Source: Shinella kummerowiae (GTDB lineage Bacteria; Pseudomonadota; Alphaproteobacteria; Rhizobiales; Rhizobiaceae). Taken from it: a stretch of 64,000 nucleotides of DNA. The translations under genes and the position numbers were made by a program. The stretch is taken from positions 558,001-622,000 of the forward strand of contig NZ_WUMK01000001.1 of the NCBI RefSeq assembly GCF_009827055.1, given 5' to 3'. Positions 41,245-59,419 of this stretch are shown here, piece after piece (position 1 is the first letter of the stretch; each line of letters begins with the position of its first letter). Below the pieces are notes generated by a model. The model was not told where the DNA came from and ran no database searches. It saw nothing but the letters and a program-made list of their open reading frames with translations.

Positions 41245-41272
41245 TCCTCATTTCCGTCCGGAGTTTCGATCC

Positions 41273-43123
41273 ATGAATTTGATCATTCAGCCCTATCGCT
41301 ATGCCCTTTCCATTGCCGTCGTTGCCGCCGGCTTCCTGCTGATGGAGACAGCGCCGTTGTTCTGGCCACCCATCTACCAAAACGCGCGCGCCGCGATCCT
41401 GGTCATGTTTTGCGGGTTTGCGCTGCTGACCTTGGCGGGAGACACCCAGGGCCGCATTCGCAGCGCGTCGGGCTTAGCTGTGGGGGCTGCCCTCCTTGCC
41501 GCGTCTGCTCTCGCCCTTACCGACCCCACCATTGCGGCAGGCGTCCTGCTCGACAGCTTCAAGGCTTGGCGAAATGCCGGCTATTCTGGAATCGAGAGCA
41601 TCCGAGGCATGGTTTCGACATGGGATCGCTTCACCGAGGCGCAAAAGCTTGGCGTGCAAACAAGCCTCGCCATCGGCCTGCCTGTGCCGCTGCTCCTCAT
41701 TCTGCGAGCGATCTCGATTGCCGCCCCCGCTTCCTCAAGCCGAATTTCAAAACAAGGCCCGTGGCGCGCCCGGTGGATGAATCGCCAGGAGTTGCGCCAG
41801 CTCCGGCACAACGACACGGGCTTACCGCTCGGTCTCTCCGGCGGTGCAATGCTGCGCTACCGCCCCAACCCGAAGACCGGATGGCGCGCCGGCCACCATG
41901 TCGCCATCGCCGGCACCCGCGCCGGGAAAGGCGTTTCCGTCGTCATTCCCGCCATCATTGATCATGACGGGCCGGTCGCGGTCCTCGACATCAAGGGTGA
42001 AAACTTCGCCGTGACCCGCCGCTATCGGCAGTCGCTCGGCCGCCAGGTCGTGGTTCTCAATCCCTTTGGCGTCATCGAACCGTCAAAGGACCGTTTCAAT
42101 CCGCTCGACTATATCCGGCAAGCGCACCTGGTCCGCGACATCGAGGTCATTGCCGAGGGGCTTGTTCGACCGGAAGGCGGAAACGGCGCGCACTTTGCCG
42201 AGATGGCGAAATCGATGATCGGCGCTGTGATCGAGGTGGTCATGACCAGGCGCGCGGAAGCTGATCGCAACCTGATCACCGTCATGGACATGTTGTTTTC
42301 CGCCGGCTTTGAAAAGACACTGACGGAATGGGCTAGTGAGCCGGAAACCTTCGGCATCCGCCCAGCCGCCGCCGCTGTCACCTTCCTTGCAGCGGGCGAG
42401 AACGAGCGCGGCGCGATCAAGACGACGATCAAGAAGGCATTCGATTGGGCACGCTCCGATGAATTGCGAGCCTTTCTCGGCAAGTCCACATGCTCGCTCG
42501 AAAACCTGTTCGAAGGGCGCGCCGATCTCTTCATGGTGGTCCCGCTCGATCAGGTGGACGCCCAGGCCGTCTTTCTCCGGCTGCTGACGAACATCATTCT
42601 TGGCATGGCCGTGCGCCTGGAGGGTGCCAAGAAGCCGAAAAAGAACGTGCTTTTGGTGCTGGACGAGTTTGTCCGTCTCGGCCGGATGGAAAAGCTGATC
42701 AACATAGCCAACGTCGCCGCCGGCTGCGGCATCGAGGCGCTGTTCATCACACAGGACAAGGGCCAGATCGAAAGCGTCTATGGCAAGGGCGACACCGCCA
42801 GCATTCTCGGCTCCTGCGTCACCACCCGCATTTTCGGCCTTGGCCGCGCCGAGTTCGAAACTGCCAACTGGGCCGCGAACGCCCTTGGCGATCAGACAGT
42901 GCTCACCCGCACGAAGCAATCCGCCGCAAAGTTCGGGGAGAGCCGCAAGACCTCAACCGCCGAGCAGCGCCAGAAACTCATGACCGCCGATCAAATCCTG
43001 GAAATGAAGGCCGGCAAAATGCTGCTGCTGACGGGGTCGAAACCGCCCGCTCTTGTAGACGCGATTGTCTCGCACCAGCATCCGGCTTATCGGGGGAAGC
43101 TGGACCGGAATCCGATGGTGTGA
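41273..43123 (+). CDS. Type IV coupling protein (VirD4/TraG family)
   Basis: 616 residues. Membrane segments lie in the first 150 residues (SIAVVAAGFLLMETAPLFW, VGAALLAASALALTDPTIAAG, IGLPVPLLLILRAISIAA). The cytoplasmic FtsK/VirD4 ATPase has Walker A in AIAGTRAGKGVSVVIPAI and Walker B in VLLVLDEFVRLGRM, plus GPVAVLDIKGENF typical of VirD4/TraG. It would link the element B relaxosome to a helper secretion channel. Having its own coupling protein but no pore genes is typical of some integrative mobilizable elements. Confidence 0.93.
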   Translation: MNLIIQPYRYALSIAVVAAGFLLMETAPLFWPPIYQNARAAILVMFCGFALLTLAGDTQGRIRSASGLAVGAALLAASALALTDPTIAAGVLLDSFKAWRNAGYSGIESIRGMVSTWDRFTEAQKLGVQTSLAIGLPVPLLLILRAISIAAPASSSRISKQGPWRARWMNRQELRQLRHNDTGLPLGLSGGAMLRYRPNPKTGWRAGHHVAIAGTRAGKGVSVVIPAIIDHDGPVAVLDIKGENFAVTRRYRQSLGRQVVVLNPFGVIEPSKDRFNPLDYIRQAHLVRDIEVIAEGLVRPEGGNGAHFAEMAKSMIGAVIEVVMTRRAEADRNLITVMDMLFSAGFEKTLTEWASEPETFGIRPAAAAVTFLAAGENERGAIKTTIKKAFDWARSDELRAFLGKSTCSLENLFEGRADLFMVVPLDQVDAQAVFLRLLTNIILGMAVRLEGAKKPKKNVLLVLDEFVRLGRMEKLINIANVAAGCGIEALFITQDKGQIESVYGKGDTASILGSCVTTRIFGLGRAEFETANWAANALGDQTVLTRTKQSAAKFGESRKTSTAEQRQKLMTADQILEMKAGKMLLLTGSKPPALVDAIVSHQHPAYRGKLDRNPMV

Positions 43124-43669: not shown

Positions 43670-46600
43670 ATGACGGTATCCGGCCTGAGGGACAACTACA
43701 TTCGAAGCACCGCTTCGGAATTTCTTCAGCATAGATTGAGGAAGGGCAGCTCTCTTCGCGCAGTTTCGGCTTATTTTTCAATGTATGCGTACTATTCCCT
43801 CCGGGAGAAGCTGGCTGATCTGCATGAAATGCGCTTTCTGTTCGGTGAGCCGCATTTGTCTGCGGAAAGCTTGGGCGGCGAAGGTGCTGCCTTCGCAATA
43901 ACGACGGCGAATGAAAAACACACCCTACAGTTGGGCCTCAAAAACCGGTTTGTTGCGAGGGAGTGTGCAAATTGGCTCGAAAGCATTGCGGAGATACGGT
44001 CTGTCCGTGAACGACTGGTTCATGGAAAACTCTACCATATTGATGATGGTTCGCGTGACCATGCAATGCTCGGCAGCTCTAACTTCACGCTCAGCGGTCT
44101 CGGAATATTCGGGAAATCGAACATCGAGCTGAATCTGGTCGTGGATAGTGATCGCGATCGTGACGATTTAAGAGCGTGGTTTGATGAACTTTGGTCAGAT
44201 CAACAGCTTACATACGACGTCAAACAGCAGGTAATATCGGCGCTTAAAGCGATTTTCCAGAATCACAGTCCTGAAGAGATCTACTTCAAAACACTATCGG
44301 AGATCTTTAACTACCTCGATGCCGACGATACCGTTGCCGGACTTCTAGATGACGCTGCAGTCACGACCAGTCAGATCTGGACAACGCTGTTTGATTTTCA
44401 GAAAGACGGCGCGAAGGCAGCGGTCCAAAAGTTGGATCGATATGGTGGTTGTATTGTCGCAGACAGCGTCGGTCTCGGAAAGACATTCACCGCTCTGGCT
44501 GTAATTAAGTACTACGAGTCAAAAAACAAATCCGTTTTGGTGCTGTGCCCAAAGAAATTGCGAGACAATTGGACAGTATACAGATCAGAGAACAACAGCG
44601 AAATTAATCCGTTTCTGAGAGACAAGTTCGGTTATACTGTACTTTCGCACACCGATTTATCTCGGGAGAGTGGTCATGTTGGTAACATTGACCTCTCTCG
44701 CATCAACTGGGGAAATTACGACCTCGTCGTCATTGATGAATCCCACAATTTCCGAAACAATTCGAAAGGGAAACGTGACGAAGACGGCAAACTGATCAGA
44801 AAATCGCGATATGAGCGATTAATGACCGATATCATACAATCGGGGGCAAAGACGCGCGTGCTTCTGCTTTCGGCAACGCCGGTCAACAACGATCTAAAGG
44901 ATTTGCGAAGCCAGCTTTACTTCATTACGGAAAATCGAGACGGCGCGTTTTCGGAAACGCTCGGCATCGGCAACCTCAAAGATTTGCTCGCTAGTTCGCA
45001 AAAGGTGTTTGCCGACTGGGCAAGTCGCTCCAAAGAACGCGATGTCGCACGTCTGATGGAACGTTTGCCGTCCGGGCTTTTTAAGCTACTGGACGGCCTC
45101 TCAATAGCGCGCTCGCGTAAGCACATTCAGCGCTACTACAGCGCCTCACTGGAGCAGATCGGCCAGTTTCCCAAGCGAGCAAAGCCAATATCAGTCTTCC
45201 CGCAGATTGATACCAAGGACCAGTTCCTATCCTATGACAGATTGAACGAGCAGATCAGCAAGTACCAACTGGCTGTCTTCAACCCCGCGCGGTTCCTTAA
45301 GCAGGAATTTGCACATCATTACGATGACGGCATTGTCCGCAATTTCACTCAGGCGGATCGCGAAACATTCCTAATTGGAATGATGAAGGTGAACTTCCTT
45401 AAGCGCCTAGAGAGTTCGATCCATTCCTTCATGATCACTATGGATCGGACGATCGAACGAATTGAGGCGCTTGAACGCCGACTGCTGGACTACAAGCGGG
45501 CGCACAGAAATGCTGAGGTGGACGTCGCGGAGTTTCAGGAAACACTCGATCTTTTCGAAGACGACGATCCCGATCCCTCGGAAGTCGGCGGAGCAAAGCG
45601 GTTCAGTCTTGACCATCTTAAGGTCGATGACTGGTTAAAGATGCTGAAGGAAGATCGCGTCAAGCTCAACGATATCCGGTTGCATGCGAAGGATGTCGGA
45701 CCAGATCGTGATGCCAAGCTCTTGAAGCTCAAAGAACTGATTTCCGAGAAGATGCGCAATCCGTCCGTCAATCATGACGGAAACGCTATCCGAAAAGTGA
45801 TTGTTTTCACAGCCTTTGCTGATACCGCGACTTACCTTTATACCCAGATCGAGAAATGGGCCCAGGAGGAATTCGGCACGAATTCCGGCCTCGTGACTGG
45901 AAGCGCAAGCGGCTGCAAGGCAACCTTTGGAAGGGCGCGATTCGACGAAATCCTCGTGAATTTCTCGCCCAAATCGAAGAAGCGCGAAGGTATGCGCGGC
46001 ATGCCCAAAGACGGCGAAATCGACATTCTCATAGCCACGGACTGTATATCTGAAGGCCAGAACCTTCAGGATTGCGATCTGTTGATCAATTACGACATTC
46101 ACTGGAACCCTGTCAGAATAATTCAACGCTTCGGCAGGATCGATCGGATCGGGAGTCGCAACAAAGAAGTTCAGCTTGTTAACTTCTGGCCGACCGATGA
46201 TCTCAATAAATACATCAATCTGAAGAGCCGCGTCGAAGCTCGCATGGCTTTGGTGGATCTTTCCGCAACCAGCGATGATAATATCCTTGGCGTGGCCGGT
46301 CTCGAAGAACTGATCAGCGAGGACATGCGATATCGCGATAAGCAGCTGCTGCGTTTGAAGGATGAAGTGGTCGATCTTGAGGACTTCACCGAAAGCGTCG
46401 CTCTAAGCAACTTCACCCTTGAGGATTTCCGGCGCGAACTTAGCAATTTCCACAAACAGCGGCGAGAGCCGGCATTGCCGAATGGCGTCTTCGGTATGGT
46501 ACCTCCGCACCCTGGATATGCGGCTGTCACACCGGGGGTCATTTATTGCTTGCGCGATCTCCGCGATCAGCAAGACCGCAGCTCGGTGAATCCCTTGCAG

Positions 46601-46957
46601 CCGTTCTATCTTGTGTACGTGCGGGACAACGGGGAAGTCGCCTATAGTTTCGCACAGGCCAAACAGGTTCTCGACGTTTATCGGGCGCTTTGCCTTGGGC
46701 AGAAAGATGCCTATCACGACCTATACGCCATGTTCGATCGGCAGACGGAGGGCGGACAAAATATGACCGTCTACGAAGCGCTTCTCGGAAAGGCTATTGA
46801 TAGTATCACCTCCCAGTTTTCATCGAGAAACATTGGAAACATGTTGTCAGAACGTGGGGGCCGATTGGTCCTTGAGCCGAACGCGGGTAAAGCCGATACC
46901 GAGTTCGAGCTGATCACGTGGCTGGTCATTAAAGAAGGCGAAGCATACAGAAAATGA
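43670..46957 (+). CDS. PLD-nuclease/SNF2-family helicase fusion, gene 1 of defence-like operon
   Basis: 1095 residues. N-terminal phospholipase-D-type domain (about 20-190) with one HKD motif, H118-x-K120-x4-D125 (VHGKLYHIDDG), then GSSNFTLSG. As with other single-HKD nucleases it should dimerise. SF2/SNF2 helicase: motif I G268LGKT, motif II D356ESH, motif III LLLSATPVNND, and the second RecA domain with FTAFADTATYL, ATDCISEGQNLQDCDLLINYD and IIQRFGRIDRIGS. It probably translocates on duplex DNA and nicks or cuts it. The ribosome site is weak. Its stop overlaps the methyltransferase start by 4 bp. Confidence 0.88.
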   Translation: MTVSGLRDNYIRSTASEFLQHRLRKGSSLRAVSAYFSMYAYYSLREKLADLHEMRFLFGEPHLSAESLGGEGAAFAITTANEKHTLQLGLKNRFVARECANWLESIAEIRSVRERLVHGKLYHIDDGSRDHAMLGSSNFTLSGLGIFGKSNIELNLVVDSDRDRDDLRAWFDELWSDQQLTYDVKQQVISALKAIFQNHSPEEIYFKTLSEIFNYLDADDTVAGLLDDAAVTTSQIWTTLFDFQKDGAKAAVQKLDRYGGCIVADSVGLGKTFTALAVIKYYESKNKSVLVLCPKKLRDNWTVYRSENNSEINPFLRDKFGYTVLSHTDLSRESGHVGNIDLSRINWGNYDLVVIDESHNFRNNSKGKRDEDGKLIRKSRYERLMTDIIQSGAKTRVLLLSATPVNNDLKDLRSQLYFITENRDGAFSETLGIGNLKDLLASSQKVFADWASRSKERDVARLMERLPSGLFKLLDGLSIARSRKHIQRYYSASLEQIGQFPKRAKPISVFPQIDTKDQFLSYDRLNEQISKYQLAVFNPARFLKQEFAHHYDDGIVRNFTQADRETFLIGMMKVNFLKRLESSIHSFMITMDRTIERIEALERRLLDYKRAHRNAEVDVAEFQETLDLFEDDDPDPSEVGGAKRFSLDHLKVDDWLKMLKEDRVKLNDIRLHAKDVGPDRDAKLLKLKELISEKMRNPSVNHDGNAIRKVIVFTAFADTATYLYTQIEKWAQEEFGTNSGLVTGSASGCKATFGRARFDEILVNFSPKSKKREGMRGMPKDGEIDILIATDCISEGQNLQDCDLLINYDIHWNPVRIIQRFGRIDRIGSRNKEVQLVNFWPTDDLNKYINLKSRVEARMALVDLSATSDDNILGVAGLEELISEDMRYRDKQLLRLKDEVVDLEDFTESVALSNFTLEDFRRELSNFHKQRREPALPNGVFGMVPPHPGYAAVTPGVIYCLRDLRDQQDRSSVNPLQPFYLVYVRDNGEVAYSFAQAKQVLDVYRALCLGQKDAYHDLYAMFDRQTEGGQNMTVYEALLGKAIDSITSQFSSRNIGNMLSERGGRLVLEPNAGKADTEFELITWLVIKEGEAYRK

Positions 46958-49900
46958 TTGATCGGGCGGGGCAGAGGCAAACAATCAAGCAGGCGCTAGG
47001 CAGCTTCCATCACGCCGCACCACGCGAGGGCGCGCGCGCGATCCTAAGCGCGCTCGGCTATACCAGCGAAAAGACCATTCGTTTGGACGGGAGCGTGTCG
47101 CAGTTTTTGTCAATCGTTGACCGTGACGGAAGGCTGGCAACATCTGAGCACGCGCAGACTCATCGCTGGAAGGGCGCGGACTTCGTTTTTCAGCTTACGA
47201 ATGACGAACTACCTATGCTTGCGGAGGGGCAGAAGGATCTCGTTCTCGGTGAAAGCGACTATCACCGAAGCATTATCGAGTCTTTCGTTTTCCTAACGAT
47301 CAATCTGGAGGATCGCGATTGGACGCGCACCGAGCTCGCGGAAATCACCCGCGCGGTGAACCGTCTCTTTCCGATGCCTGCGATCATCATCTTCTTATAT
47401 GGCGGAAAACTGACGCTTTCAGTCATCCCCCGGCGCCCCAATAAGAAAGACAATTCGCGTGACGTGATTGAGCCAACGCGAAAAGTCGCTCTCATCAAGG
47501 ACGTCGATCTCCAACGCCCACATCGAGCCCACCTCGACATCCTGACAGACCTGCATATTCGGGCAGGTGTGACCGCCAAGAAGGCGCCGAACAATTTCGA
47601 TGACCTCTATAAGGCTTGGACAGAGATCCTCTCAGCCGAGGAGCTCAACAAGCGCTTTTATCGGCGTCTCTCCGACTGGTATCTTTGGGCCGTGGGCACG
47701 AAGGATCACCCCCAGGTCATGTTCCCGGTCGCACGGGAGGTGGAACAGAAGGTTGGCGCTGAAGAACGGCATAAGCTCAATCAGATTTCTGTGATTCGCC
47801 TCCTGACTCGCCTGATCTTCGTTTGGTTCATCAAGGAAAAGGGTCTGGTACCGGACGCACTTTTCAATGCCAGCCAGTTACGAGAAATGTTGGTTCAGGA
47901 CCCGGAGAAGCATCGCGAAGCGAGCTCCTATTACAAGGCGATACTCCAGAACCTGTTCTTTGCGACCCTCAACACCCAAATGGAAGGTGACGGGCGAAAT
48001 TGGCGATCTGATGCTGCAGAAAGCGGCCGGACACCTGATTACCTGATTTCGACCTTTCTTCGCTACAGGCAAGACTTTCGCCAGCCCGATCAGGCGTTGG
48101 AGATTTTTCGTAAGGTTCCGTTCCTCAATGGTGGTCTGTTCGAATGTCTAGACCGGGAAGTGTCGGATGCCGAGTTGGCCCGAAATGATGATCTCAACAA
48201 GTGGATCAGCATGGAGGGCAGTCAGAAGGTTATTCGTGCTGATGGCTTTTCGGAGCGCAAGTCGAATACGCTTCACGTACCAAACAAGGTTTTTTTCGCG
48301 GTAGCTGAACAAGGAGATGACGTCGACACTCCATTGAATGAGGCCAACGGCACGAACAAAACTGGTTACAAAGTCGATGGCATCATCCGTATTTTCGAGA
48401 GCTACAAGTTCACGGTCGAGGAAAATACGCCATATGACGAGGAAGTGGCACTCGATCCGGAACTTTTGGGCAAGGTTTTCGAGAACCTGATCGCCAGCTA
48501 CAACGAGGACACTTCCACAACCGCCCGCAAGAAGTCCGGCTCCTTCTACACACCGCGCGTGGTCGTCGACTACATGGTCGATGAAGCCCTAGTCGGTTAT
48601 TTGAGGCCGGCTCTTGCAACGCGGAAGCAGCCCGAGGATCGGGGTATCCAGAGACACAGGAACATCAATGAGACCTTCGATCTCGGTTCGGTTCCTGGTG
48701 GGCTCAATTTGGCGCGCGATAGTGGCGCAGGAGATGCAAGCAGCGAGGGGACAGATTCGTCCGCAACCGATGCGCGGCTCCGAGCGCTACTGAGCTATGA
48801 GGACACAGAATACGATTTCACGGAGTCAGAAAAAGATGCGCTAATCGCGCGGATCGAAGGCGTTCGGGCCATAGATCCAGCCTGTGGTTCTGGCGCCTTT
48901 CCTATGGGTCTTTTGCAAAAGCTAATCCATATTCTGAAGCGCCTCGATCCAGACAACAGGCGCTGGAAAGCTGCGCTCCGAGAACCGTTGGTCCGGCAGT
49001 TACAGCATGCCGAGCAGAGCCCGGATATCGGCGCGAAGAGCGAGCAGATCGAAGCGCTAAAGGATCAGCTCGAAAAGCTCGACCGAGATTTTTCCGAGAC
49101 CAGCAATTTCCCGGATTATGCTCGCAAGCTTTATGTCATCGACAAATGCATTCACGGCGTCGACATTCAGCCGATCGCCGTGCAGATTACCAAGCTGCGT
49201 TTCTTTATCTCGCTGGTGGTAAGCCAGAAAATCGACGAAAACGCAGACAATCTGAACATCACACCGCTGCCAAACCTGGAAACCCGTCTGGTGGCGGCCA
49301 ATGCCCTACGACCCATCGAGCGAGGTCAGGGCGACCTGCTTCGCAACCCCGAAATCGACATTACCGAAAAAGCGCTGGTGGATGCGAACGAACGATATTT
49401 TGGCGCGCGCAACCGGCGGACAAAAAACAAGGCGAAAGAGCAGATCAACCAGCTTCGTGAGAAGCTCTCCGACCTGCTCAGCCAGACCCACGACCTACCT
49501 GAGGAAACTGCAAAGCAAATTGCCCGGTGGGACCCGTTTGATCAGAATGCTTCGGCAGATTTCTTCGATCCGGAATGGATGTTCGGGCTGCGCGAGCAGT
49601 TCAATATCGTCATGGCAAATCCGCCCTATGTGCGGCAAGAAAAAATCGGCGGGGACAAAGAATACTTCAAACAGAGAGCCGACGAGAACAAGCGTCGCAG
49701 AAATGCCTATGGACTGTACCAGAGTTTCGCAGGCACAGCGGACTATCTGGTTTACTTCATGGAGCGCGGGCTGGACCTCTTACAGCCTGGCGGCTCCTTC
49801 GTATTCATTACTTCGAACAAATGGTACCGCGCCGCCTATGGCCAAAACATTCGTCGATGGATTGGCCGCAACGCGCAAATTCGCTCTATCATCGATTTCG

Positions 49901-51111
49901 GTGATGCCGATGTCTTCGATGCGATTGCCTACCCCACAATTATCGTCGCGTCCAAGCGCGCCAAAGTGGTAGCTGCGCCGAACGAGAAAGATATTCTCCT
50001 TGCCTGGAACTGGCCAGCAGACCTGGGGCGCAAAGACATTTCGGAATTCCCGGAGCTCTTCCGTAGCCATGCGTTTCAGGTGCCCCAGAAGGCGTTGGAT
50101 GATGCCAAAGGGTGGCAACTAGAACCGCAGGTTAAGCGCAAATTATTGGGACGCATTCGTAAGGCGGGTAAGCCTCTTGGCGAATATGTTGAAGGCCGAT
50201 TGTATTACGGTATCAAAACGGGATTCAATGATGCCTTCGTAATCGATGGCGAGACCAAGGACCGTTTAATCCAAGAAGATCCAAAGTCGGCGGACATCAT
50301 CAAGCCCTTTCTTCGCGGCAGAGATGTGAAGCGATGGAAGGTAGAGCCACAGGATTTGTGGCTGATTTTTACCCGGCGCGGCGTTGAGATCGAAGCCTAT
50401 CCGGCAATTAGTAATCATCTACTTGCCTATCGCGAGCGACTAGAACCAAAACCGTCAAATTGGAATGACGACGAGAAATGGGATGGCCGGAAGGCTGGTT
50501 CGTATCAGTGGTTTGAGATTCAGGATAACGTTGCTTATTGGGAAGCTTTCCTAAAGTCGAAAATCATCGTCCCTGCAATACAGAATAAGGTGGACTACGC
50601 TCCAGACACCAAAGGATTTTTCAGCAACGACAAGACCAGCATTATTGCGCATGAAGATTGGCGCTATTTGCTCGGCATTCTCAATTCCAGCGTTTCCTGG
50701 TGGCTAACGCGGCAGACGTTTTCCAGTAAACAGGGCGGCTTTTTTGAATTCAAGCCGATGTATGTCGAGACGGTTCCCATTCCTACCGCTCAAGAGAAAC
50801 AGAAGGCACAAATCGAAGCATTGACCGGTATCTTAAGCTCCGGTCATCAGGATCCGCGGTTTGAACAGCTTCTCAACGGGCTGGTATACGAGCTATTCTT
50901 TATGGAAGAATTGCATGCTCGCAACATACGCCTATTCGATGCCTGTGATCGCTTCGGCCTTAGCAATCTCTCCGGCCTCGAGGGCGACGTGTTGAAGGAT
51001 ATGGCAGAGGCGCTCGCTCGCGAATTCTTTGTACCGTCACATGAGATCTACCGAATGCTCTTCGATCTGCGCGCCATTGATGTCGTCCGTATCATCGAGG
51101 GCGAGCAATGA
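46954..51111 (+). CDS. Eco57I-type adenine DNA methyltransferase, gene 2 of defence-like operon
   Basis: 1385 residues. SAM-binding motif I D641PACGSGAF, catalytic motif IV N889PPYVRQEKIGG (gamma-class N6-adenine type), and downstream KWYRAAYGQNIRRW and a C-terminal target-recognition-like region (about 1080-1320, with GRLYYGIKTGFNDAFVID and FLRGRDVKRWK). About 248 residues separate the two motifs, including a coiled-coil-like insert. The N-terminal 600 residues resemble large PglX/type IIG proteins, but I see no firm endonuclease motif. It could mark self DNA or form part of the restriction complex. Translationally coupled to both neighbours. Confidence 0.88.
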   Translation: MIDRAGQRQTIKQALGSFHHAAPREGARAILSALGYTSEKTIRLDGSVSQFLSIVDRDGRLATSEHAQTHRWKGADFVFQLTNDELPMLAEGQKDLVLGESDYHRSIIESFVFLTINLEDRDWTRTELAEITRAVNRLFPMPAIIIFLYGGKLTLSVIPRRPNKKDNSRDVIEPTRKVALIKDVDLQRPHRAHLDILTDLHIRAGVTAKKAPNNFDDLYKAWTEILSAEELNKRFYRRLSDWYLWAVGTKDHPQVMFPVAREVEQKVGAEERHKLNQISVIRLLTRLIFVWFIKEKGLVPDALFNASQLREMLVQDPEKHREASSYYKAILQNLFFATLNTQMEGDGRNWRSDAAESGRTPDYLISTFLRYRQDFRQPDQALEIFRKVPFLNGGLFECLDREVSDAELARNDDLNKWISMEGSQKVIRADGFSERKSNTLHVPNKVFFAVAEQGDDVDTPLNEANGTNKTGYKVDGIIRIFESYKFTVEENTPYDEEVALDPELLGKVFENLIASYNEDTSTTARKKSGSFYTPRVVVDYMVDEALVGYLRPALATRKQPEDRGIQRHRNINETFDLGSVPGGLNLARDSGAGDASSEGTDSSATDARLRALLSYEDTEYDFTESEKDALIARIEGVRAIDPACGSGAFPMGLLQKLIHILKRLDPDNRRWKAALREPLVRQLQHAEQSPDIGAKSEQIEALKDQLEKLDRDFSETSNFPDYARKLYVIDKCIHGVDIQPIAVQITKLRFFISLVVSQKIDENADNLNITPLPNLETRLVAANALRPIERGQGDLLRNPEIDITEKALVDANERYFGARNRRTKNKAKEQINQLREKLSDLLSQTHDLPEETAKQIARWDPFDQNASADFFDPEWMFGLREQFNIVMANPPYVRQEKIGGDKEYFKQRADENKRRRNAYGLYQSFAGTADYLVYFMERGLDLLQPGGSFVFITSNKWYRAAYGQNIRRWIGRNAQIRSIIDFGDADVFDAIAYPTIIVASKRAKVVAAPNEKDILLAWNWPADLGRKDISEFPELFRSHAFQVPQKALDDAKGWQLEPQVKRKLLGRIRKAGKPLGEYVEGRLYYGIKTGFNDAFVIDGETKDRLIQEDPKSADIIKPFLRGRDVKRWKVEPQDLWLIFTRRGVEIEAYPAISNHLLAYRERLEPKPSNWNDDEKWDGRKAGSYQWFEIQDNVAYWEAFLKSKIIVPAIQNKVDYAPDTKGFFSNDKTSIIAHEDWRYLLGILNSSVSWWLTRQTFSSKQGGFFEFKPMYVETVPIPTAQEKQKAQIEALTGILSSGHQDPRFEQLLNGLVYELFFMEELHARNIRLFDACDRFGLSNLSGLEGDVLKDMAEALAREFFVPSHEIYRMLFDLRAIDVVRIIEGEQ

Positions 51112-52655
51112 GTGAGGGAGAAGCAGCGGCGCCGGCGCCAATGGTAGCAGTCGCCCCAGCCGCACCGGCTGTAGATCCGCTCCGTATCGAGTCGGTGTCC
51201 ATATGTGCTTTCCGTGCCTTCCCTCATGAAGTAGCCCTCAACCTGCAGGGTAAAAACATTCTGATCTATGGTGAGAATGGATCTGGCAAAACATCGATTT
51301 TCCAAGCTTTGCGGCACTTCTTTGCAAAGTCGGCTCCCAGGTTCGAGACGATAAAGAATGTTTTCAACGCCAATGCCGACAACGAGTTCAGGATTAGCGT
51401 AAGGTTCAATGACGGCACGCCGGCCGTCGATTGGCTAAAGGCAAAACACCCAGGATCTGCGTTTACGGGGTCTGATCCTCGTGTCGTTGAGACGGCAATA
51501 CGAAAATCAGTCCTCGATTATCGCGCTTTGCTCGACACAAACTATATCCATGGTGATGATCGGCCGAACCTGTTTGACATCGTTGTCGAGCGGATTCTCC
51601 ACGACTTCCCGATCACCGTCGAAGGCGGTACGAACACAACAATTGGGGAGCTTTGGAGCAAAACTAAACGAAGCATTCCTTCCAACTACAACTATAAGCT
51701 GGATTCGATAACAGAGAACTGCTCTGCTTTCAGCAAAGGGCTACGGGGCGCCTTGGACGCACTGCAACCGCACTTGGCAGGTCTTTTAACGGAACTGATC
51801 GGCGATGCCGTCACGGTGGACTCCATGACTTTTTCCGGAGTCACCTACAATCATGCATGGTTCAAGCGAGATCGTGAAATCCGGGGGCAGACGCTTTATC
51901 CTGAGGTGGTATTCGGCACGCACGGGGTACATATCCCGCAGAACTTTCTCAATGAGGCACGTCTATCGGCCCTTGCATTGGCAATCTATCTCGCGGGACG
52001 CCTCGCTTGTGTGCCGACCGATGGAGCCAACCGGCTGAAACTGCTTGTCCTAGATGATGTGCTAATTGGATTAGACCATGATAACCGCATGCCGGTTTTG
52101 AGGCTTCTGCAGAAGTATTTCATCGACTGGCAGATTGTCATCCTGACCCATGATCGCGTTTGGTTTGACATGGCCAAGGACTTTTTCAAGAAGACTGATC
52201 CCTGGCAGTGGATTGAAGTAAAAGCTGATGGGAACAATGGCAAGGCGACGCCTACGGTGAAAAGGCACAACGGCGATGTAGTAGCTGATGCGCTTTCTGA
52301 TGCTAACCTCTTGAAAACATCTAGCATCGAAGCCGCCGCAAACAGTGCCAGGCGCGCATTTGAAGGGTGCCTCCGGCGATTTGCAGAAAAGCGAAGCTTA
52401 AAACTGCGGTTCAAGGTTGACCCGAAGGATGTAAATACAGACGATTTTCTTGATGCGATCGACGCCTGGATCGACGCAAAACTGTCCCGAGCAGCCTTGA
52501 AGCCAGTTGTGGCCGATCTTCGCGCGATGCGAACCGGCGTTCTCAACCCACAAAGCCATGATGGAGCACCAAGCCCTTCGACGGCGGAAGTGACAGCCGC
52601 GTTGACTCGGATAGAAGAATTACGTGCAGCCATATCAAATGCGGCACTCAATTAG
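51108..52655 (+). CDS. RecF/SMC-like AAA ATPase, gene 3 of defence-like operon
   Basis: 515 residues. Walker A G55ENGSGKT62 after RIESVSICAFRAFPHEVALN, as in RecF/SMC-type ATPases. A signature-like region FLNEARLSALALAIYLAGRL, Walker B LLVLDDVLIGLD (D316/D317) and switch His in IVILTHDRVWFDM follow. No long coiled coil: the span between the halves is about 200 residues. The C-terminal ~130 residues (AANSARRAFEGCLRRFAE, then VLNPQSHDGAPSPSTAE) form a separate helical domain. It may sense DNA ends or invading DNA. Overlaps gene 2 by 4 bp. Confidence 0.88.
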   Translation: MSEGEAAAPAPMVAVAPAAPAVDPLRIESVSICAFRAFPHEVALNLQGKNILIYGENGSGKTSIFQALRHFFAKSAPRFETIKNVFNANADNEFRISVRFNDGTPAVDWLKAKHPGSAFTGSDPRVVETAIRKSVLDYRALLDTNYIHGDDRPNLFDIVVERILHDFPITVEGGTNTTIGELWSKTKRSIPSNYNYKLDSITENCSAFSKGLRGALDALQPHLAGLLTELIGDAVTVDSMTFSGVTYNHAWFKRDREIRGQTLYPEVVFGTHGVHIPQNFLNEARLSALALAIYLAGRLACVPTDGANRLKLLVLDDVLIGLDHDNRMPVLRLLQKYFIDWQIVILTHDRVWFDMAKDFFKKTDPWQWIEVKADGNNGKATPTVKRHNGDVVADALSDANLLKTSSIEAAANSARRAFEGCLRRFAEKRSLKLRFKVDPKDVNTDDFLDAIDAWIDAKLSRAALKPVVADLRAMRTGVLNPQSHDGAPSPSTAEVTAALTRIEELRAAISNAALN

Positions 52656-52664
52656 GATTTAGCC

Positions 52665-55600
52665 ATGACCATTCACCTCACCGCGCGCGTTGCTTGGCAC
52701 GATGATGGATGGAATGGGAGGATCTGCTCGAAACCCGAACAGAACACCTACTGCGTCGGCATGAAATCCTTTCCCGGGGATTTGATCCATCGGGAGCGCG
52801 ATCTGGAACAGGAGAAAGCCTGTTCTGGACAAGCCGTCTGTAAGCTGAAAAGCGATAATTTGCCGCCCTGCATATATAGCATCAACGCCTTTGGGCCGGA
52901 TGCCATTCGCGGCTATTCCAATCCGCCCGATTTTTTCTACGGCGGTGCGGAGCGCGAAGAATGGGATATTCCTCCATCTTCAGTCTGCGTTTGGCCATAC
53001 GAGGCCATGTATGGTGAGGAAGTATACACCGATGGCCGCCTCGACAATAACAAGCGCCGGGTGGGAGCTGACGAGTTTTTTGCGGAGCTGGAGGAGGACG
53101 AGAGCCTAATCTTTTACTACGCCAACCATTCCAACCCGTTTACCGACGAAAACGATCCGAAGTACGTCATAGTCGGCGTTTCTCGCGTGAAGCAGATCGG
53201 AAAGCCGCTCTTCTATTCCAATCCCTCTGACTATGTTCGTCAGAATTATGCGGATGGCATGATATGGGCGCGAAACGTAACATCGCATTATCCAAACGAA
53301 GGCTTTCGCATTCCCTATCATGCTTACCGTCATCGGCCCGAAATTCTAGACAGGCTTTTGGTCACACCGGAAAATCCTGCTAGCTGTAAATATGGGGCTC
53401 GTCATCTCACCGACGACGTAACCATCGGCATGCTTGAGCAGATGCTCGACGTCATAGCGCGGCTAAAGGAAGTCGGTGACACCAATGAAGACTGGGATGC
53501 TCGCGCCAAGTGGGTGCAAGCCCAGATCGCGAAACTCTGGAAGCGTCGCGGCCTGTATCCGGGACTTTTGACCGTGATGGACCTTCTTGATGCAGGCGGC
53601 TCTATCAAAAACGGCAAGTGGTATTGTGATCGTGGTGAGGAGAAGAAGGCCTATGAGCTATTCTTCAATGCCCTGGAGGCCGGAAAAGACTGCCCCGAAC
53701 TGGAACTCACTGGCCTTGCTCTAAAGCGGGTGTCGCGCTCCTGGCAATTGCTTGAGGATGATGTACAGGCCTTTCTCAAGACGATAGCGGTTCGGATTGA
53801 CCTCTACCTTGATCAATTGCAGAGCATCGTCGGACAGAAGCGCGCCGCGCATGGCCTTCCGGAGAGCTTGTCATCCATCGTTGAAGACCCGTATTTGTTG
53901 AGCGAGTTTTTCATCGGTGATGGGCCTGACGATATTATTCCTTGGAGCACGATTGATCGTGGTGTCTTCCCATCGCCGGAGTTGGGCGGCGAGGTCCTCT
54001 GCGACATGCTCAATGACGATCCTCGAAGACTGCGCTCCCTTTGTGTTGAGCAATTGAAGCGCGAGCCGAACCAAACTTTTCGCCCGGCAGACATCATCCT
54101 CAAAGAAATCAATGCGCGCATGGATCGGTTGCCCGAATGGAAACGGCAAAATTTCAGTCTGCGCTATTTCGAAGTTGACCGGGAGCCTCTTGAAAAGGCG
54201 CTGGTGCTGAGAAAGGAAGAAGATAGGCTTTATCTCTATTTGAAGCATGTCTTCCAGGACGAAAGGACTGTAGACAAAACGTTGACCGAGCTTTTTGATC
54301 GGCCGCCGATCACGCTTCCACGCCCGGTTCCGGAGGGTTTTTGGCTTCGTGCCGTTTCCGACGATGAGTCCTCATTGGCCAAAAAGGGCGGCGACGAATA
54401 CCGGCTGGCAGTGGAAGCTCAGGCTGGCCAGTGCTCCCAGATCTTCAGGTTGCCGTTATCGGTTGTTTCCGGCCGCGCGGGAACCGGCAAGACCACCATT
54501 ATCCGCGCCATCGTTAAAGCCATTCGCCAGGTCGAAGGTACCGGAGCACCGATCAATGTGATGACACCCACCGGCAAGGCGACTGATCGCGTGCGCGCAG
54601 TGTTCGAGCGATACAATATTGGCGGCGTCAACGTCTCGACAATCCATTCATTCCTGGCATCAAACGGATGGCTCAACGACAACCTCACATTCAAACGATG
54701 GGGAGGAAAATGCGCTGATCTCGAAGGCACGATTGTTATCGACGAGACATCCATGCTCGACCTGGCCCTCGCAGCTACCTTTTTCCGGTCTATCGAATGG
54801 CAGAATGTAAAACGACTGATCCTGGTAGGCGATCATAATCAACTCCCACCCATCGGTCGCGGACGCGTCTTTTCCGACATCATCGAATGGCTACGCAAGG
54901 CCGGAGCACCCAACCTGGCGGTACTACAAACCAATATGCGCCAGATGGAAAATCGGCTCGATGCAAAAGGCCAGGGCATACTCGGTCTCGCCGAGTTGTT
55001 CCTGGTGGATTCTGCTGTTCACGGCGAGCAGACTTCGCCTGCGGCTGAACAACTCCTTCAGAAAGTGCATCAGGGCGGCAAGATCGATGAAGACCTGGAC
55101 GTGGTCTATTGGAATTCCGCCGATGAACTAGTCGCGAGTTTGGTTGCTGATATAGTCTCTGTTCTTCCAGGTGATGCCGACGACGATCAAATATACAAGC
55201 TTTGGCGAAATGAAGTCATGCAAAACAAACCAGAAGGACTTCAGGTTTTAACGCCACATCGCGGGGAGCTACACGGCGTCGAGGCATTGAACATCGAGCT
55301 GCAATCAATCCTCACCAATGATCTGATTGATAGAGTGGGAGCTGTTGATGGGATTACCTTGAACGACAAGGTGATTCAGATCCAGAACAGGACATCCCGC
55401 CGGGGAATTTGGGCTTACGATTTTGCTCTGGGAAAATCTCGTCAAGTTGAGTTGTTTAACGGGGAGATCGGGTATGTTGAGCCACACAACTTCGATCGAG
55501 CCGATCTGAAGAAGGTCTTTTCCGGTTACAGCAAAAAACGACTTAAGCGATTTCAGGTGAAATTTGCGCGGAAAGATAAGATCTGCGTCAATTACGGACG

Positions 55601-56285
55601 CGAGATTCCTACCTCAACGAAGGGAAAGTTCACCTCAGAGAGCGTCGAAAATAACCTTGAACTCGCTTACGCAATTTCGATACACAAATCGCAGGGAAGC
55701 GAGTTTTCTCGTACATTCGTCATACTACCGGCTTCGCGCAGGCCGCTTTCAGCAGAGCTGCTCTATACAGCGTTAACGCGCGCGCAAGCACATTGTCAGC
55801 TTTATATCCAGGGAAATCTTTCGCCATTGCTTGAAGCGCGAAGGAAGGAAAACGCCCAAAGCTTGCTGGTTTCGTCTTCGCTATTCGGGCACTTTAGAAC
55901 AGTCGATGACCGCCTGTTGGCGAGAAGTGATTGGTATCAAAGCGGGAAGGTCCATGAGGCGCTGAGCGGCGACATGGTTCGTTCGAAATCCGAGGTCATC
56001 ATCGCAAATCTACTCCACCAAGCTGGCGTGCCTTTCACCTACGAGGAGCCGCTTTACGCTGAAGACGGAACGTTCTTCTTGCCTGATTTCACGCTTCGAA
56101 TTGGTGGAGAAAAATACTACTGGGAGCATTGGGGCATGTTGTCCGACCAGGGCTACGCGGCGCATCGCGACCTTAAGAAACAGTGGTACATGACACATTT
56201 TCCAGGCCGCTTGATCGAGACGTTGGAAAGTGGGCAATTGAGCTCAGAAGCGAAAAGTCAGATCGAGGAAATTCGACTCAAATAG
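52665..56285 (+). CDS. RecD-like SF1 helicase with C-terminal PD-(D/E)XK nuclease, gene 4 of defence-like operon
   Basis: 1206 residues. The N-terminal ~270 residues (TARVAWHDDGWNGRICSKP, YYANHSNPFTDE, KYVIVGVSRVKQIG) form an unassigned module, possibly EVE/PUA-like. SF1B helicase: Walker A G603RAGTGKT610, D693ETSMLD, ILVGDHNQLPPIGRG, AISIHKSQGSEFSRTFVILP and LLYTALTRAQ. C-terminal nuclease: SKSE1110, P1140-D1141-F, E1154-H-W, the acidic triad of Vsr/DUF559-like PD-(D/E)XK enzymes. It would unwind and cut DNA. Starts 9 bp after gene 3; last gene of the operon. Confidence 0.88.
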   Translation: MTIHLTARVAWHDDGWNGRICSKPEQNTYCVGMKSFPGDLIHRERDLEQEKACSGQAVCKLKSDNLPPCIYSINAFGPDAIRGYSNPPDFFYGGAEREEWDIPPSSVCVWPYEAMYGEEVYTDGRLDNNKRRVGADEFFAELEEDESLIFYYANHSNPFTDENDPKYVIVGVSRVKQIGKPLFYSNPSDYVRQNYADGMIWARNVTSHYPNEGFRIPYHAYRHRPEILDRLLVTPENPASCKYGARHLTDDVTIGMLEQMLDVIARLKEVGDTNEDWDARAKWVQAQIAKLWKRRGLYPGLLTVMDLLDAGGSIKNGKWYCDRGEEKKAYELFFNALEAGKDCPELELTGLALKRVSRSWQLLEDDVQAFLKTIAVRIDLYLDQLQSIVGQKRAAHGLPESLSSIVEDPYLLSEFFIGDGPDDIIPWSTIDRGVFPSPELGGEVLCDMLNDDPRRLRSLCVEQLKREPNQTFRPADIILKEINARMDRLPEWKRQNFSLRYFEVDREPLEKALVLRKEEDRLYLYLKHVFQDERTVDKTLTELFDRPPITLPRPVPEGFWLRAVSDDESSLAKKGGDEYRLAVEAQAGQCSQIFRLPLSVVSGRAGTGKTTIIRAIVKAIRQVEGTGAPINVMTPTGKATDRVRAVFERYNIGGVNVSTIHSFLASNGWLNDNLTFKRWGGKCADLEGTIVIDETSMLDLALAATFFRSIEWQNVKRLILVGDHNQLPPIGRGRVFSDIIEWLRKAGAPNLAVLQTNMRQMENRLDAKGQGILGLAELFLVDSAVHGEQTSPAAEQLLQKVHQGGKIDEDLDVVYWNSADELVASLVADIVSVLPGDADDDQIYKLWRNEVMQNKPEGLQVLTPHRGELHGVEALNIELQSILTNDLIDRVGAVDGITLNDKVIQIQNRTSRRGIWAYDFALGKSRQVELFNGEIGYVEPHNFDRADLKKVFSGYSKKRLKRFQVKFARKDKICVNYGREIPTSTKGKFTSESVENNLELAYAISIHKSQGSEFSRTFVILPASRRPLSAELLYTALTRAQAHCQLYIQGNLSPLLEARRKENAQSLLVSSSLFGHFRTVDDRLLARSDWYQSGKVHEALSGDMVRSKSEVIIANLLHQAGVPFTYEEPLYAEDGTFFLPDFTLRIGGEKYYWEHWGMLSDQGYAAHRDLKKQWYMTHFPGRLIETLESGQLSSEAKSQIEEIRLK

Positions 56286-56663: not shown

Positions 56664-57986
56664 TCAGTGGCATGCCGCCAAAACGCTATCTGCAATCTCG
56701 ATACAGCGTCCCATCGCACGGTCCAGAATGTCCGGAAATGCTCCCATATCTTTCGCCATGGCCGGAGTCTGGCGCAGGTGTTCGGCAAACTCGGTAAGCG
56801 TAGCTGCGAGCGCTTTCTGATCCGCAGGATCAGGCATCAGTTCGGCGCAAATGTGCTTCCAATCGGGAAGATGATCGCGACCACCGTCACGCATCATGGC
56901 CCAGCGGGTGGAACGAACGATTCCCTCTTTGGCGAGCCGCATTGGCGCGAAATCAAACAGCGGAGACAGGCGGATCGTGCCGTCCTGGTGTTTGCTCAAT
57001 GCGGAATTTCGGCCGTGATTATCGGGATTGCCGAGCGCCAGGTTGGCGATGTCGCGCTTCAGGTATTCAACAATGTCTGCGAAGGGATCAGCCGAATATT
57101 GGCGGAGAACGTCGATATAGGCCTCGTGCGTGCCGACATGGCCGAAATCGGCAACGCCGATCGCGGACACCAGGCTTTCTTGACCCAGCCTAACGGTTCC
57201 GCGGCCTTCTTTGTTCTTCCGGTCGAAACGGGGAATGATAAGGACGCCCTCGGCATAGGTCGACGGTTCGCTGACATTCAGCCCGATCTCTTGAGCGATC
57301 CGCGAATAGAGGGCTTCACCTTCGAGGATCAGTCGGTCTACCGGCTCGTTGCTGCGTACCAGCTTGACGATAACGTGGCGCACGGCCTCATCATCGCTGA
57401 CGAAGCTGTCGGGGTAATAGAGCCCGTCAGTCGCCTGGGTCATTGAGACCTTCGGCCATTCGCCCTGCAGGCCGCTTGAGCCTGAAGCGAGCATTCCAAA
57501 ACGGTCGGCGACTTCCATGAAGCGGTCTGATCGTTCAAGGATTTCCGCCTCTGTAACCCCTTGGCGCTCAACGCCGCGCAGCCGTTCCGCTTCGGCGTCC
57601 GCCGCTTCTTTGATGCGGATATTGCCTATGCCGCCAGTCGCCGATCGGAGAAGCAGGGGCAGATCAGAAGCGCGCGAGCCTTCAGTAAGGCCGAGGTGCT
57701 CGGCAAGCTTTCGCCTTGCATGCCCTTGGGGCATAAGATCCAAGAGGAAGGGCGGCCAGCTACGGCTATATCGATTTTCGAGATCGACGGGATAACGGAC
57801 GGATAAGGCGCGATGATCACGGACCGTGTTTCCAGCAGAAAACTCCGCCGATGCCACGGTGACGAAATAGTCGAGATCGTAATCGACGATCGACGCGCCC
57901 TGGAAGCCGGCCGCGTCGTCCTTAAGTTCCAGTGTCGCGGCGTGATGCCACTCACCGTCAAAATGGGTTTGGAGCGTTAGGCGCAT
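56664..57986 (-). CDS. hipA: HipA-family serine/threonine kinase toxin
   Basis: 440 residues from ATG at 57986, which follows AGAGGG; an in-frame ATG at 58019 lies inside the operator region. HipA fold: GY/F-N-terminal beta domain, FLLDLMPQGHARRKLAEHLG, phosphate-binding Gly loop GSSGLQGEWPK, catalytic loop GNPDNHGRNSAL (D322, N327), and metal-binding DFAPM in place of DFG. Family members phosphorylate aminoacyl-tRNA synthetases and induce dormancy. It may back up the defence operon as an addiction or abortive-infection module. Confidence 0.92.
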   Translation of the reverse strand: MRLTLQTHFDGEWHHAATLELKDDAAGFQGASIVDYDLDYFVTVASAEFSAGNTVRDHRALSVRYPVDLENRYSRSWPPFLLDLMPQGHARRKLAEHLGLTEGSRASDLPLLLRSATGGIGNIRIKEAADAEAERLRGVERQGVTEAEILERSDRFMEVADRFGMLASGSSGLQGEWPKVSMTQATDGLYYPDSFVSDDEAVRHVIVKLVRSNEPVDRLILEGEALYSRIAQEIGLNVSEPSTYAEGVLIIPRFDRKNKEGRGTVRLGQESLVSAIGVADFGHVGTHEAYIDVLRQYSADPFADIVEYLKRDIANLALGNPDNHGRNSALSKHQDGTIRLSPLFDFAPMRLAKEGIVRSTRWAMMRDGGRDHLPDWKHICAELMPDPADQKALAATLTEFAEHLRQTPAMAKDMGAFPDILDRAMGRCIEIADSVLAACH

Positions 57987-58026
57987 TAATTGACCCTCTA
58001 AATGGTTCAAATAATGCATTCTTCGA

Positions 58027-58060
58027 AATTATTCAACCCATCAAAGTGGGTTAAATAATT
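58027..58060. promoter_or_regulatory. Palindromic operator upstream of hipA
   Basis: AATTATTCAACCCA (58027-58040) and TGGGTTAAATAATT (58047-58060) pair at 13 of 14 positions with a 6-bp spacer. A further half-site, TGGTTCAAATAAT, lies at 58003-58015, just before the hipA start. Likely HipB/HipAB binding sites. The sequence is unlike O1/O2 of the Y4mF-type regulator, so the two circuits look independent. Confidence 0.75.
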
Positions 58061-58064
58061 GCTG

Positions 58065-58418
58065 TCAAAACTGCCAGCTACCGAAACGGTCATTGAAGTT
58101 TCTGATCCGGCTGACCATCTTTCGGCCACGCAATGCATTGGCGCAAGCGAACAGCATGAGGGAAAGGCTCAGCACCGGTGTCAACCAAGCATCGGAGCCG
58201 CTTCTTCCATCAAACACAATGAGCAAGACAGCTCCCATTGCGGCGAAGAAGACCATTCCGAAATCGTATTGCTTTGAAAGGCTCGCAAGCCGGGCCGAAT
58301 GTTGGGCATAGCGCAATTGCCTCGCCAACCTTCGCTTTTCGGAGGCCAGTTGATCGCGCTGGCGTCCGATCGCGTAGAAACCCTGTTCGATTTTCTTTTC
58401 AAAGCTCGACTTACTCAT
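58065..58418 (-). CDS. Small membrane protein with N-terminal coiled coil
   Basis: 117 residues. Charged helical N-terminus (FEKKIEQGFYAIGRQRDQLASEKRRLARQL), then two membrane segments (FGMVFFAAMGAVLLIVF, WLTPVLSLSLMLFACANAL) and a short basic tail. Start overlaps the stop of the repressor-like gene upstream (ATGA), so the pair is one operon. A two-helix membrane protein coupled to an HTH gene could be a pore-forming effector or a membrane anchor. Not recognised. Confidence 0.65.
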   Translation of the reverse strand: MSKSSFEKKIEQGFYAIGRQRDQLASEKRRLARQLRYAQHSARLASLSKQYDFGMVFFAAMGAVLLIVFDGRSGSDAWLTPVLSLSLMLFACANALRGRKMVSRIRNFNDRFGSWQF

Positions 58419-58858
58419 ATTGCTGACCTCAGATATTTTTCTGCAATTTCCTCTGTGAATTCGCCGTGCTGTTCGGCGTAGTCGATTAGGAACCGGATGA
58501 GCTTCAAGCGCTTATCAGGTTCCACCTGACAGTTTTCCCGCACGATAAATGCATCAACTTGGTTCGTGACCTCGTGGTAGAGGTCGACCGTGTCACGATT
58601 GTACGGGCTGCCTTCCCCGGTCATCATCCAGACTGGATTGACGTTGAACTTTGTGTAGAGCGAGCGCAGTACGCGAACGGGAATCTCGCGTTGGCCGCGC
58701 TCATAGGTATTGTAGCCGCCCTGGGAGACCTCAAGCGCTTCCGCAAAGGGGATCTGTTTCAGTCCCGAGTTTTCCCGGATCATCGCCAAACGTTTGCCCA
58801 TCTGAATGAGCAGGGTGTCTTGCGTCGAATTATTATTTTTCTGATAATCGCGTTGCAT
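58415..58858 (-). CDS. XRE-family repressor, phage CI-like
   Basis: 147 residues. HTH at about 18-75: LIQMGKRLAMIRENSGLKQI, then PFAEALEVSQGGYNTYERGQREIPVRVLRSL. Then FNVNPVWMMTGEGSPYN, the pattern of short phage repressors lacking a peptidase domain, and a helical C-terminus. It is divergent from the excisionase-like/integrase genes across 65 bp, so it probably represses their expression and keeps element B integrated. Confidence 0.82.
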   Translation of the reverse strand: MQRDYQKNNNSTQDTLLIQMGKRLAMIRENSGLKQIPFAEALEVSQGGYNTYERGQREIPVRVLRSLYTKFNVNPVWMMTGEGSPYNRDTVDLYHEVTNQVDAFIVRENCQVEPDKRLKLIRFLIDYAEQHGEFTEEIAEKYLRSAI

Positions 58859-59152: not shown

Positions 59153-59419
59153 ATGAAGCAGCAAGCTGAAGCGTTGGCCCCACGGCCCATTTACAAGGTC
59201 GCGGTCAGCCGCATCCGTGCGGCGGAACTTCTCGACGTCTCGACGGGCACCTTTGATGACTGGGTTCGCCGTGGCCTTATGCCGAAAGGCGTGAAGATCG
59301 GCGCCTTGCGCCGTTGGGATGCCGAGGAAATCCGCGCGTCCTGGTACAACATCAAAGAACAGGGCTTGAGCGGAGACGAAGACGATGGCGAAAACCCGTT
59401 TGATTATGCGGTCGGGTGA
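59153..59419 (+). CDS. Excisionase/AlpA-like DNA-binding protein 2
   Basis: 88 residues from ATG at 59153 (GAGGAG upstream). A second small winged-helix protein: YKVAVSRIRAAELLDVSTGT, then FDDWVRRGLMPKGVKIGALRRWDAEEIRASW. It overlaps the integrase start by 35 bp, so translation is linked. Two different excisionase-like proteins in tandem may act as regulator plus directionality factor. Confidence 0.8.
   Translation: MKQQAEALAPRPIYKVAVSRIRAAELLDVSTGTFDDWVRRGLMPKGVKIGALRRWDAEEIRASWYNIKEQGLSGDEDDGENPFDYAVG

Follow-up and report, generated by a model that had tools for sequence, protein, structure and literature searches.

Among the described systems closest to the locus analysed here are PrrI-PrrC (type Ic restriction with a linked anticodon nuclease) and RloC, in which an ABC ATPase whose C-terminal domain is of HEPN type and bears an R-x3-E...(S)H pattern is encoded with a restriction-type system (PMC2610378, PMC3710099). 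In RloC the anticodon nuclease triad takes the form Arg-x3-Glu-x36-52-His, often with Ser before the His (PMC2610378). Some HEPN families do not have the canonical Rx4-6H motif, and HEPN domains without it can be non-catalytic (PMC3710099). Type-2 BREX-related (Hma-like) systems combine an HKD-SNF2 helicase, an N6-methyltransferase and an ATPase (PMC12839542), CxC-ABC/PbeABCD systems an HKD-SF2 helicase and an ABC ATPase, sometimes with methylases (PMC10853773), and a tested ARMADA cluster consists of a RapA-like SNF2 helicase, a PglX-like methyltransferase, a YprA-like helicase and a UvrD-family helicase (PMC12458937).

Here we analyse a 64,000-nucleotide stretch of Shinella kummerowiae DNA (assembly GCF_009827055.1, contig NZ_WUMK01000001.1, positions 558,001 to 622,000), called the window below, in which genes for an HKD (PLD)-SNF2 helicase, an Eco57I-type adenine methyltransferase and an ABC ATPase with a HEPN-type C-terminal domain follow each other. 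We think it somewhat probable that these three genes make up a two-line defence system resembling restriction-modification, with the ABC-HEPN protein as the second line, in a manner like PrrI-PrrC.

Recurrence and joint divergence of a three-gene core

The core lies on the forward strand and comprises gene 1 (43670-46957, a complete open reading frame of 1095 amino acids), gene 2 (46954-51111, 1385 amino acids) and gene 3 (51108-52655, 515 amino acids). A RecD-like helicase-nuclease, gene 4 (52665-56285, +, 1206 amino acids), comes next and is treated here as a neighbour. A preliminary description, made from the letters alone, had reported four large genes joined by ATGA, ATGA and 9-bp junctions, and all of this is present: the four frames have no internal stops, genes 1-2 and 2-3 share 4-base ATGA overlaps, and a 9-base gap separates genes 3 and 4.

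Gene 3 has three relatives on plasmids, and the one in Prevotella F0039 has PLD-SNF2, Eco57I methyltransferase and ATPase in the order of the window, with an extra gene after PLD-SNF2. A profile of four ATPases, run against a genome collection, returned at least 589 candidate stretches, at least 269 of which encode relatives; the best 80 of these were kept, and all counts of 80 refer to them. Sixty-five of the 80 loci have at least 9 kilobases (kb) upstream of the ATPase, and a gene 2 match lies upstream on the same strand in every one of the 65, accompanied in 42 by a PLD-SNF2 gene. A script classed the protein directly upstream of the ATPase as methyltransferase in 49 loci, specificity-only in 27 and none in 4. 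After the rows were read these classes became 52, 24 and 4, because L091, L092 (1257 and 1262 amino acids) and L115 (ended by the contig edge) each keep an NPPY-type motif. Where the script's methyltransferase loci offered at least 2.5 kb of room, PLD-SNF2 was present in 41 of 44 and missing in L064, L109 and L114. The preliminary description had asked whether the gene order recurs in unrelated genomes and had named a lack of conservation as a ground for refutation. The order of genes 1-3 is conserved, so that ground falls away; for gene 4 the expectation did not hold. Its other ground, a match of all four proteins to one named system, falls away too.

We compared 43 full-length triads (41 of the 80 loci, the Prevotella locus and the window). 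Mantel correlations were 0.878 for SNF2 and methyltransferase, 0.625 for methyltransferase and ATPase, and 0.508 for SNF2 and ATPase, and 1000 permutations of each gave at most 0.218. The labelled hosts of the triad tree belong to 11 phyla. At the level of sequence this shows that the triad proteins diverge together, and thus joint inheritance, contact not being shown by the correlation itself.

Some loci depart from the simple layout. Extra genes stand between methyltransferase and ATPase in several of them; in L114 (689-11767) the methyltransferase and ATPase genes are tandemly repeated in a stretch without PLD-SNF2; and L010/L147 (G186) is a decayed relative, with one frame of 294 amino acids in which a gene 1-like start is fused to a gene 3-like end. 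The window's own genome has one strong match each to gene 1 and gene 3.

Core proteins and a proposed mechanism

Pfam identifies a RecF/SMC-type ATPase in gene 3, and residues 24-394 (51177-52289, +) form a RecF/Rad50/SMC-type head, in line with the RecF-like ATPase of the preliminary description; the HEPN-type C-terminal domain (residues 389-515; 52272-52652, +) was missed there and is new here. PADLOC matches of gene 3 are weak and spread over several defence ATPases (best 1.1e-12). Since VIA and Foldseek with the whole protein covered the head alone, the C-terminal domain was folded apart, and its predicted model has the helical fold of HEPN domains. No PrrC/RloC structures were among the matches listed for gene 3, which excludes nothing.

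In 61 sequences the invariant residues of this domain are R415, E419, N480 and H484, and nothing else. Over 66 sequences R415-x3-E419 (52350-52364, +) is kept in 66/66, and in N480-x2-S483-H484 (52545-52559, +) N and H are kept in 66/66 and S in 60/66; position 479 is mostly L or M. These residues resemble the Arg-x3-Glu...(Ser)His triad of PrrC/RloC. The canonical Rx4-6H is not kept, R475 (R/K in 59/66) standing nine residues before H484, and the Glu-His spacing is 64, compared with 31 in PrrC and x36-52 in RloC (PMC2610378). With hhalign the ATPase heads of gene 3 and RloC-type proteins matched at 95.45%, and the C-terminal domain matched 15 RloC-type C-domains weakly, at 4-6%. The latter lies above controls (0.04-0.98%) but is no proof of homology. 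No relative of gene 3 was found in 50,697 phage records, and a search of viral contigs with the single protein confirmed none.

The HKD nuclease and helicase proposed earlier for gene 1 are borne out by its Pfam domains (PLDc_2, SNF2, Helicase_C) and by most HKD residues; the best PADLOC match is C3a139 HKD+Snf2 (8.8e-118). In 44 sequences the HKD-type motif (residues 118-125; 44021-44044, +) keeps H118 in 43 and K120 in all, followed by G135-S136-S137 in 44/44 and N138 in 43/44, and helicase residues are conserved as well. D125, the D of the textbook HxKx4D, is kept in just 20/44.

Gene 2 matches Eco57I, N6_Mtase and TaqI_C in Pfam and type IIG, not type III, models in PADLOC (6e-91), and the fusion of an Eco57I-type methyltransferase to a specificity domain is itself a type IIG feature. 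An alignment of 24 sequences (gene 2 with 23 out of 54 relatives that had a suitable length) confirmed both methyltransferase motifs of the preliminary description: DPACGSGAF (residues 641-649; 48874-48900, +) is invariant in most columns, and NPPY (residues 889-892; 49618-49629, +) has an invariant NPP and Y in at least 90%. The TaqI_C specificity domain (residues 1117-1276; 50302-50781, +; PF12950, 1e-11) is found in 24/24. A part absent from the earlier account is the DUF4391-like N-terminal region (about residues 1-230; 46954-47643, +). Family residues 1-250 matched seven DUF4391 proteins in hhalign at 97.06% (E 7.4e-11, 174 columns), with four other gene 2 segments at most at 1.30% and 20 shuffles at most at 1.45%. 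The Pfam DUF4391 model matched 12 of the 24 sequences at E 0.01, gene 2 itself scoring 29.0 bits against a cut-off of 29.9. Type IIG enzymes can have a PD-(D/E)xK nuclease of their own at the N-terminus. Within residues 1-260 of gene 2, E85, D166, D170, K182, D183, H190 and H193 are the D/E/K/H positions kept in at least 18/24; they include no clear D...(D/E)xK, and the region matches DUF4391.

From these parts we infer a defence activity in two lines. The methyltransferase of gene 2 would mark adenines at sites chosen by the TaqI_C domain, and the HKD-SNF2 protein, probably joined to gene 2 through the DUF4391-like domain, would travel along unmarked DNA and cut it. The ABC-HEPN protein, probably docked on the tail of gene 2 behind the specificity domain, would stay silent until this DNA-acting line is disturbed or engaged. 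The ATPase head would then free the HEPN RNase, RNA would be cut (transfer RNA, by analogy) and growth would stop, as with PrrC for PrrI. The downstream RecD-like gene would be a separate defence candidate on the same mobile element.

Partner proteins, defence neighbours and the mobile element

Gene 1 is covered to at least 80% in 102 plasmid records, with 38-41% identity among the 30 matches listed. In the seven plasmid loci that were read (L029-L035) the gene after PLD-SNF2 is DUF4391 in 7/7, a site-specific methyltransferase follows in 7/7 (other genes intervene in two) and a DEAD/DEAH helicase follows that in 5/7. These PLD-SNF2/DUF4391/Mod(/Res) operons share relatives of gene 1 with the window, where the DUF4391-like sequence is part of gene 2, fused-like at its start, and not a separate gene beside a type III Mod. 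They differ in having a type III-like methyltransferase (one protein checked), and DUF4391 or Mod queries matched 0/80 core relatives. We found no name for them beyond C3a139 for gene 1. In a tree of 50 PLD-SNF2 proteins (quick method) the seven type III-linked proteins nest inside the triad lineage and have one triad protein in their midst, which requires at least two changes of partner. We infer that PLD-SNF2 has kept DUF4391 as its constant partner, with the type of methyltransferase apparently swapped.

The proposed docking part for gene 3 is the C-terminal tail of gene 2 (residues 1266-1385; 50749-51108, +). A tail profile built from these same loci was tested on 83 of them (the 80 plus L003, L007 and L008) and matched directly before the ATPase in 69. 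In the other 14 the tail is in a methyltransferase further upstream (nine) or in a short frame further upstream (L113), three loci begin at a contig end, and L007 has no tail match. The seven type III-linked loci gave 0/7 matches, a further difference from the window. In an outside test of 299 genomes, a small sample, the tail occurred in two, the window's own and G443, and in both an ABC-HEPN gene stands directly after it. In G426 and G514 (L156, L157) a distant relative of the ABC ATPase overlaps the preceding gene, which in G426 encodes a GmrSD_N protein.

All 24 specificity-only proteins carry this tail before the ATPase. Their loci (including L050, L055, L056, L063 and L068), 19 of which are titled Poribacteria, form a two-gene set in which a TPR/specificity gene overlaps or adjoins the ABC-HEPN gene; at E 1e-10 TPR was found in 22/24 of these proteins, TaqI_C in 22/24, TIR in 11/24 and FRG in 4/24. 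The methyltransferase and TPR arms are not wholly apart, because in five of the 24 loci (L053, L056, L059, L105, L107) another relative of gene 2, one that includes methyltransferase sequence, lies further upstream, and in L111 the specificity-only protein is accompanied by methyltransferase and PLD-SNF2. In view of the 24 loci, the short specificity proteins found in Nostoc and Thiospirochaeta are perhaps true stand-alone partners rather than remnants. It might be possible, and we suggest it tentatively, that ABC-HEPN and the specificity tail are an exchangeable pair of DNA reader and RNase, plugged into different defence systems through either a methyltransferase arm (via the DUF4391-like part to HKD-SNF2) or a TPR (TIR/FRG) arm. 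If so, a specificity domain of the restriction type would, through this pair, set off dormancy that acts on RNA, and the pair would mark out a superfamily of defence systems not yet described.

The operon looks like a defence operon, as had been proposed, and known defence families lie beside 5 of the 8 relatives scanned (out of 12 listed), the flank proteins having been picked by size and nearness, not at random. They are SIR2/pAgo-associated (L036), GmrSD (L040, L044, L048) and Gabija A and B (L106). In L067 a HEPN-domain protein (991-2550) stands before the triad, and in L037 and L039 no defence family was seen among the scanned flank proteins. A Fic-domain protein (1650-2708) lies directly before the triad of L036.

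To the left of the operon in the window are genes for a MobC/NikA-like protein, a relaxase-like protein (below the Pfam cut-off) and a type IV secretion system coupling protein (39143-43123, +), and to the right a tyrosine integrase (59385-60575, +; Phage_integrase 4.2e-18). Because of these flanks the operon is most simply cargo of a mobile element. In 2-kb windows its G+C content is 0.49-0.54, against 0.61-0.65 in the transfer genes to the left. To the right it is 0.54-0.57 and stays low up to the integrase. The earlier statement that the operon is richer in A+T than the surrounding element thus holds against the transfer genes, but low G+C is not special to the operon, since it extends rightward to the integrase. 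Directly after gene 4 and before the integrase, Pfam places a HipA-type gene, a small gene and a helix-turn-helix regulator (56664-58858, -).

Alternative explanations and relation to described systems

The preliminary description had seen a four-gene unit with two processive nucleases. That all four genes are one system, with the RecD-like protein as a second DNA-degrading arm, strikes us as very unlikely, although gene 4 follows gene 3 so closely on the same strand. The four-gene unit was rejected on the finding that 0/80 core loci (flanks up to 10 kb) have a gene 4 relative above 100 bits; the only lesser matches were in L071 (20.7 bits) and in L003 (28.9 bits), a locus outside the 80. In G443, a genome of the window's own family, the triad is present (genes 2 and 3 are both split over two frames), and the 19.9 kb read contain no gene 4. 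Gene 4 relatives without the triad occur on three plasmids, adjoining type I-like genes in Bartonella, behind a type ISP enzyme in Paracoccus and among other helicase and methyltransferase genes in Hymenobacter. The last speaks somewhat for four genes, as a distant SNF2 (81 bits to gene 1) precedes the relative and a methyltransferase (90 bits to type III Mod) comes further on, but neither is closely related to the core proteins. Two further genomes with gene 4 relatives have no gene 1-3 match in the 19.9 kb read, and at 1e-60 gene 4 is in 3 of 385 genomes of the class, the window's own included. Gene 4 has RecD-like SF1 helicase domains in Pfam and a putative E-D-E nuclease triad, read by eye in a single translation. 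It matches PDC-S68, a single-gene PADLOC candidate that covers gene 4 only and lies outside the conserved core, at 1653.3 bits (residues 1-1203 on model positions 1-1200 of 1202). Since gene 4 is absent from core relatives, occurs without the triad and is listed as PDC-S68, two processive nucleases are not the design of the conserved unit, in which the HEPN-type domain of gene 3 is the likelier second effector.

More serious, if still unlikely, is the view that genes 1-3 are a defence system in which gene 3 serves as a RecF-like ATPase for DNA sensing or loading and no more. The HEPN-type domain would then bind nucleic acid or protein without cutting, and DNA destruction would be the whole mechanism. 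The RecF/Rad50-like head, the missing Rx4-6H motif, the existence of non-catalytic HEPN domains without it (PMC3710099) and the weak comparison with RloC C-domains all agree with this view. It does not account well for the invariance of exactly four polar residues across 61 sequences, which looks like that of an active site, nor for their R-x3-E...SH pattern, which is that of RloC. It is also conceivable, but improbable, that the operon serves mainly to stabilise the mobile element, acting as a selfish modification system in which cells that have lost it are killed by the restriction or RNase arm. Its position as cargo with mobilisation genes and integrase would fit, as would that of the Prevotella relative, between an integrase and mobilisation-like genes (read by eye); the defence families beside 5/8 scanned relatives argue against it, although a double role is still compatible with them.

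The poorest candidate reading, which we regard as hardly credible, is that the operon belongs, as a divergent member, to a named system, be it type-2 BREX-related/Hma, CxC-ABC/Pbe or DISARM. Each shares at least one part with the core, HKD-SNF2 or SF2 helicase, methyltransferase or ATPase (PMC12839542, PMC8565338, PMC10853773), and gene 1 partly matches the DrmD, HmaA and PbeA models of PADLOC. However, the HmaA and DrmA matches do not extend beyond the shared helicase part, the sole DrmA match among the four proteins covering gene 1 residues 576-838. DrmB was not among the best 25 PADLOC families per protein, which for genes 1-3 are the top of longer lists. Hma-like systems have a DUF499 ATPase and DUF3780 (PMC12839542), neither of which was among the Pfam matches of the four proteins (DUF499 at E 0.001). 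CxC-ABC/PbeABCD requires a CxC zinc-hook ATPase and DndE (PMC10853773), but the 515 residues of gene 3 contain no C-x-C, its model has no long coiled coil (longest helix 37 residues) and the three core genes neither include nor enclose a DndE-like gene. By its published description (PMC12458937), ARMADA/YprA differs from the PLD-SNF2/Eco57I/ABC set, no YprA profile having been run. In Pfam and NCBIfam no curated cut-off for a named system was reached by the four proteins, and in PADLOC (best 25 families per protein) separate parts of named systems matched but no whole system. Like the earlier reader, we were unable to assign the set to a named system. Judged by sequence, the core resembles Hma, CxC-ABC/Pbe and DISARM in single parts and fails a defining part tested in each. 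No name for the three-gene core was found in PADLOC 2023 or the literature searched, and we call it undescribed within that scope.

With the unit corrected, detection rules should take three genes, with PDC-S68 apart. If the two-line reading is right, the core represents a restriction-like system, widespread and without a name, that brings its own second line of RNA cutting and is built from other parts than PrrI-PrrC; guard RNases on restriction enzymes would then seem to have arisen more than once, and DUF4391 would gain a testable role as adapter between methyltransferase and HKD-SNF2 nuclease. From PrrI-PrrC and RloC the core differs in its DNA arm, which is HKD-SNF2 with a type IIG-like methyltransferase and not HsdRMS, and in gene 3 by the longer E-H spacing and the weak C-domain profile match. 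Hence our best reading, by analogy, is that the core would work like PrrI-PrrC but should not be filed as PrrC/RloC.

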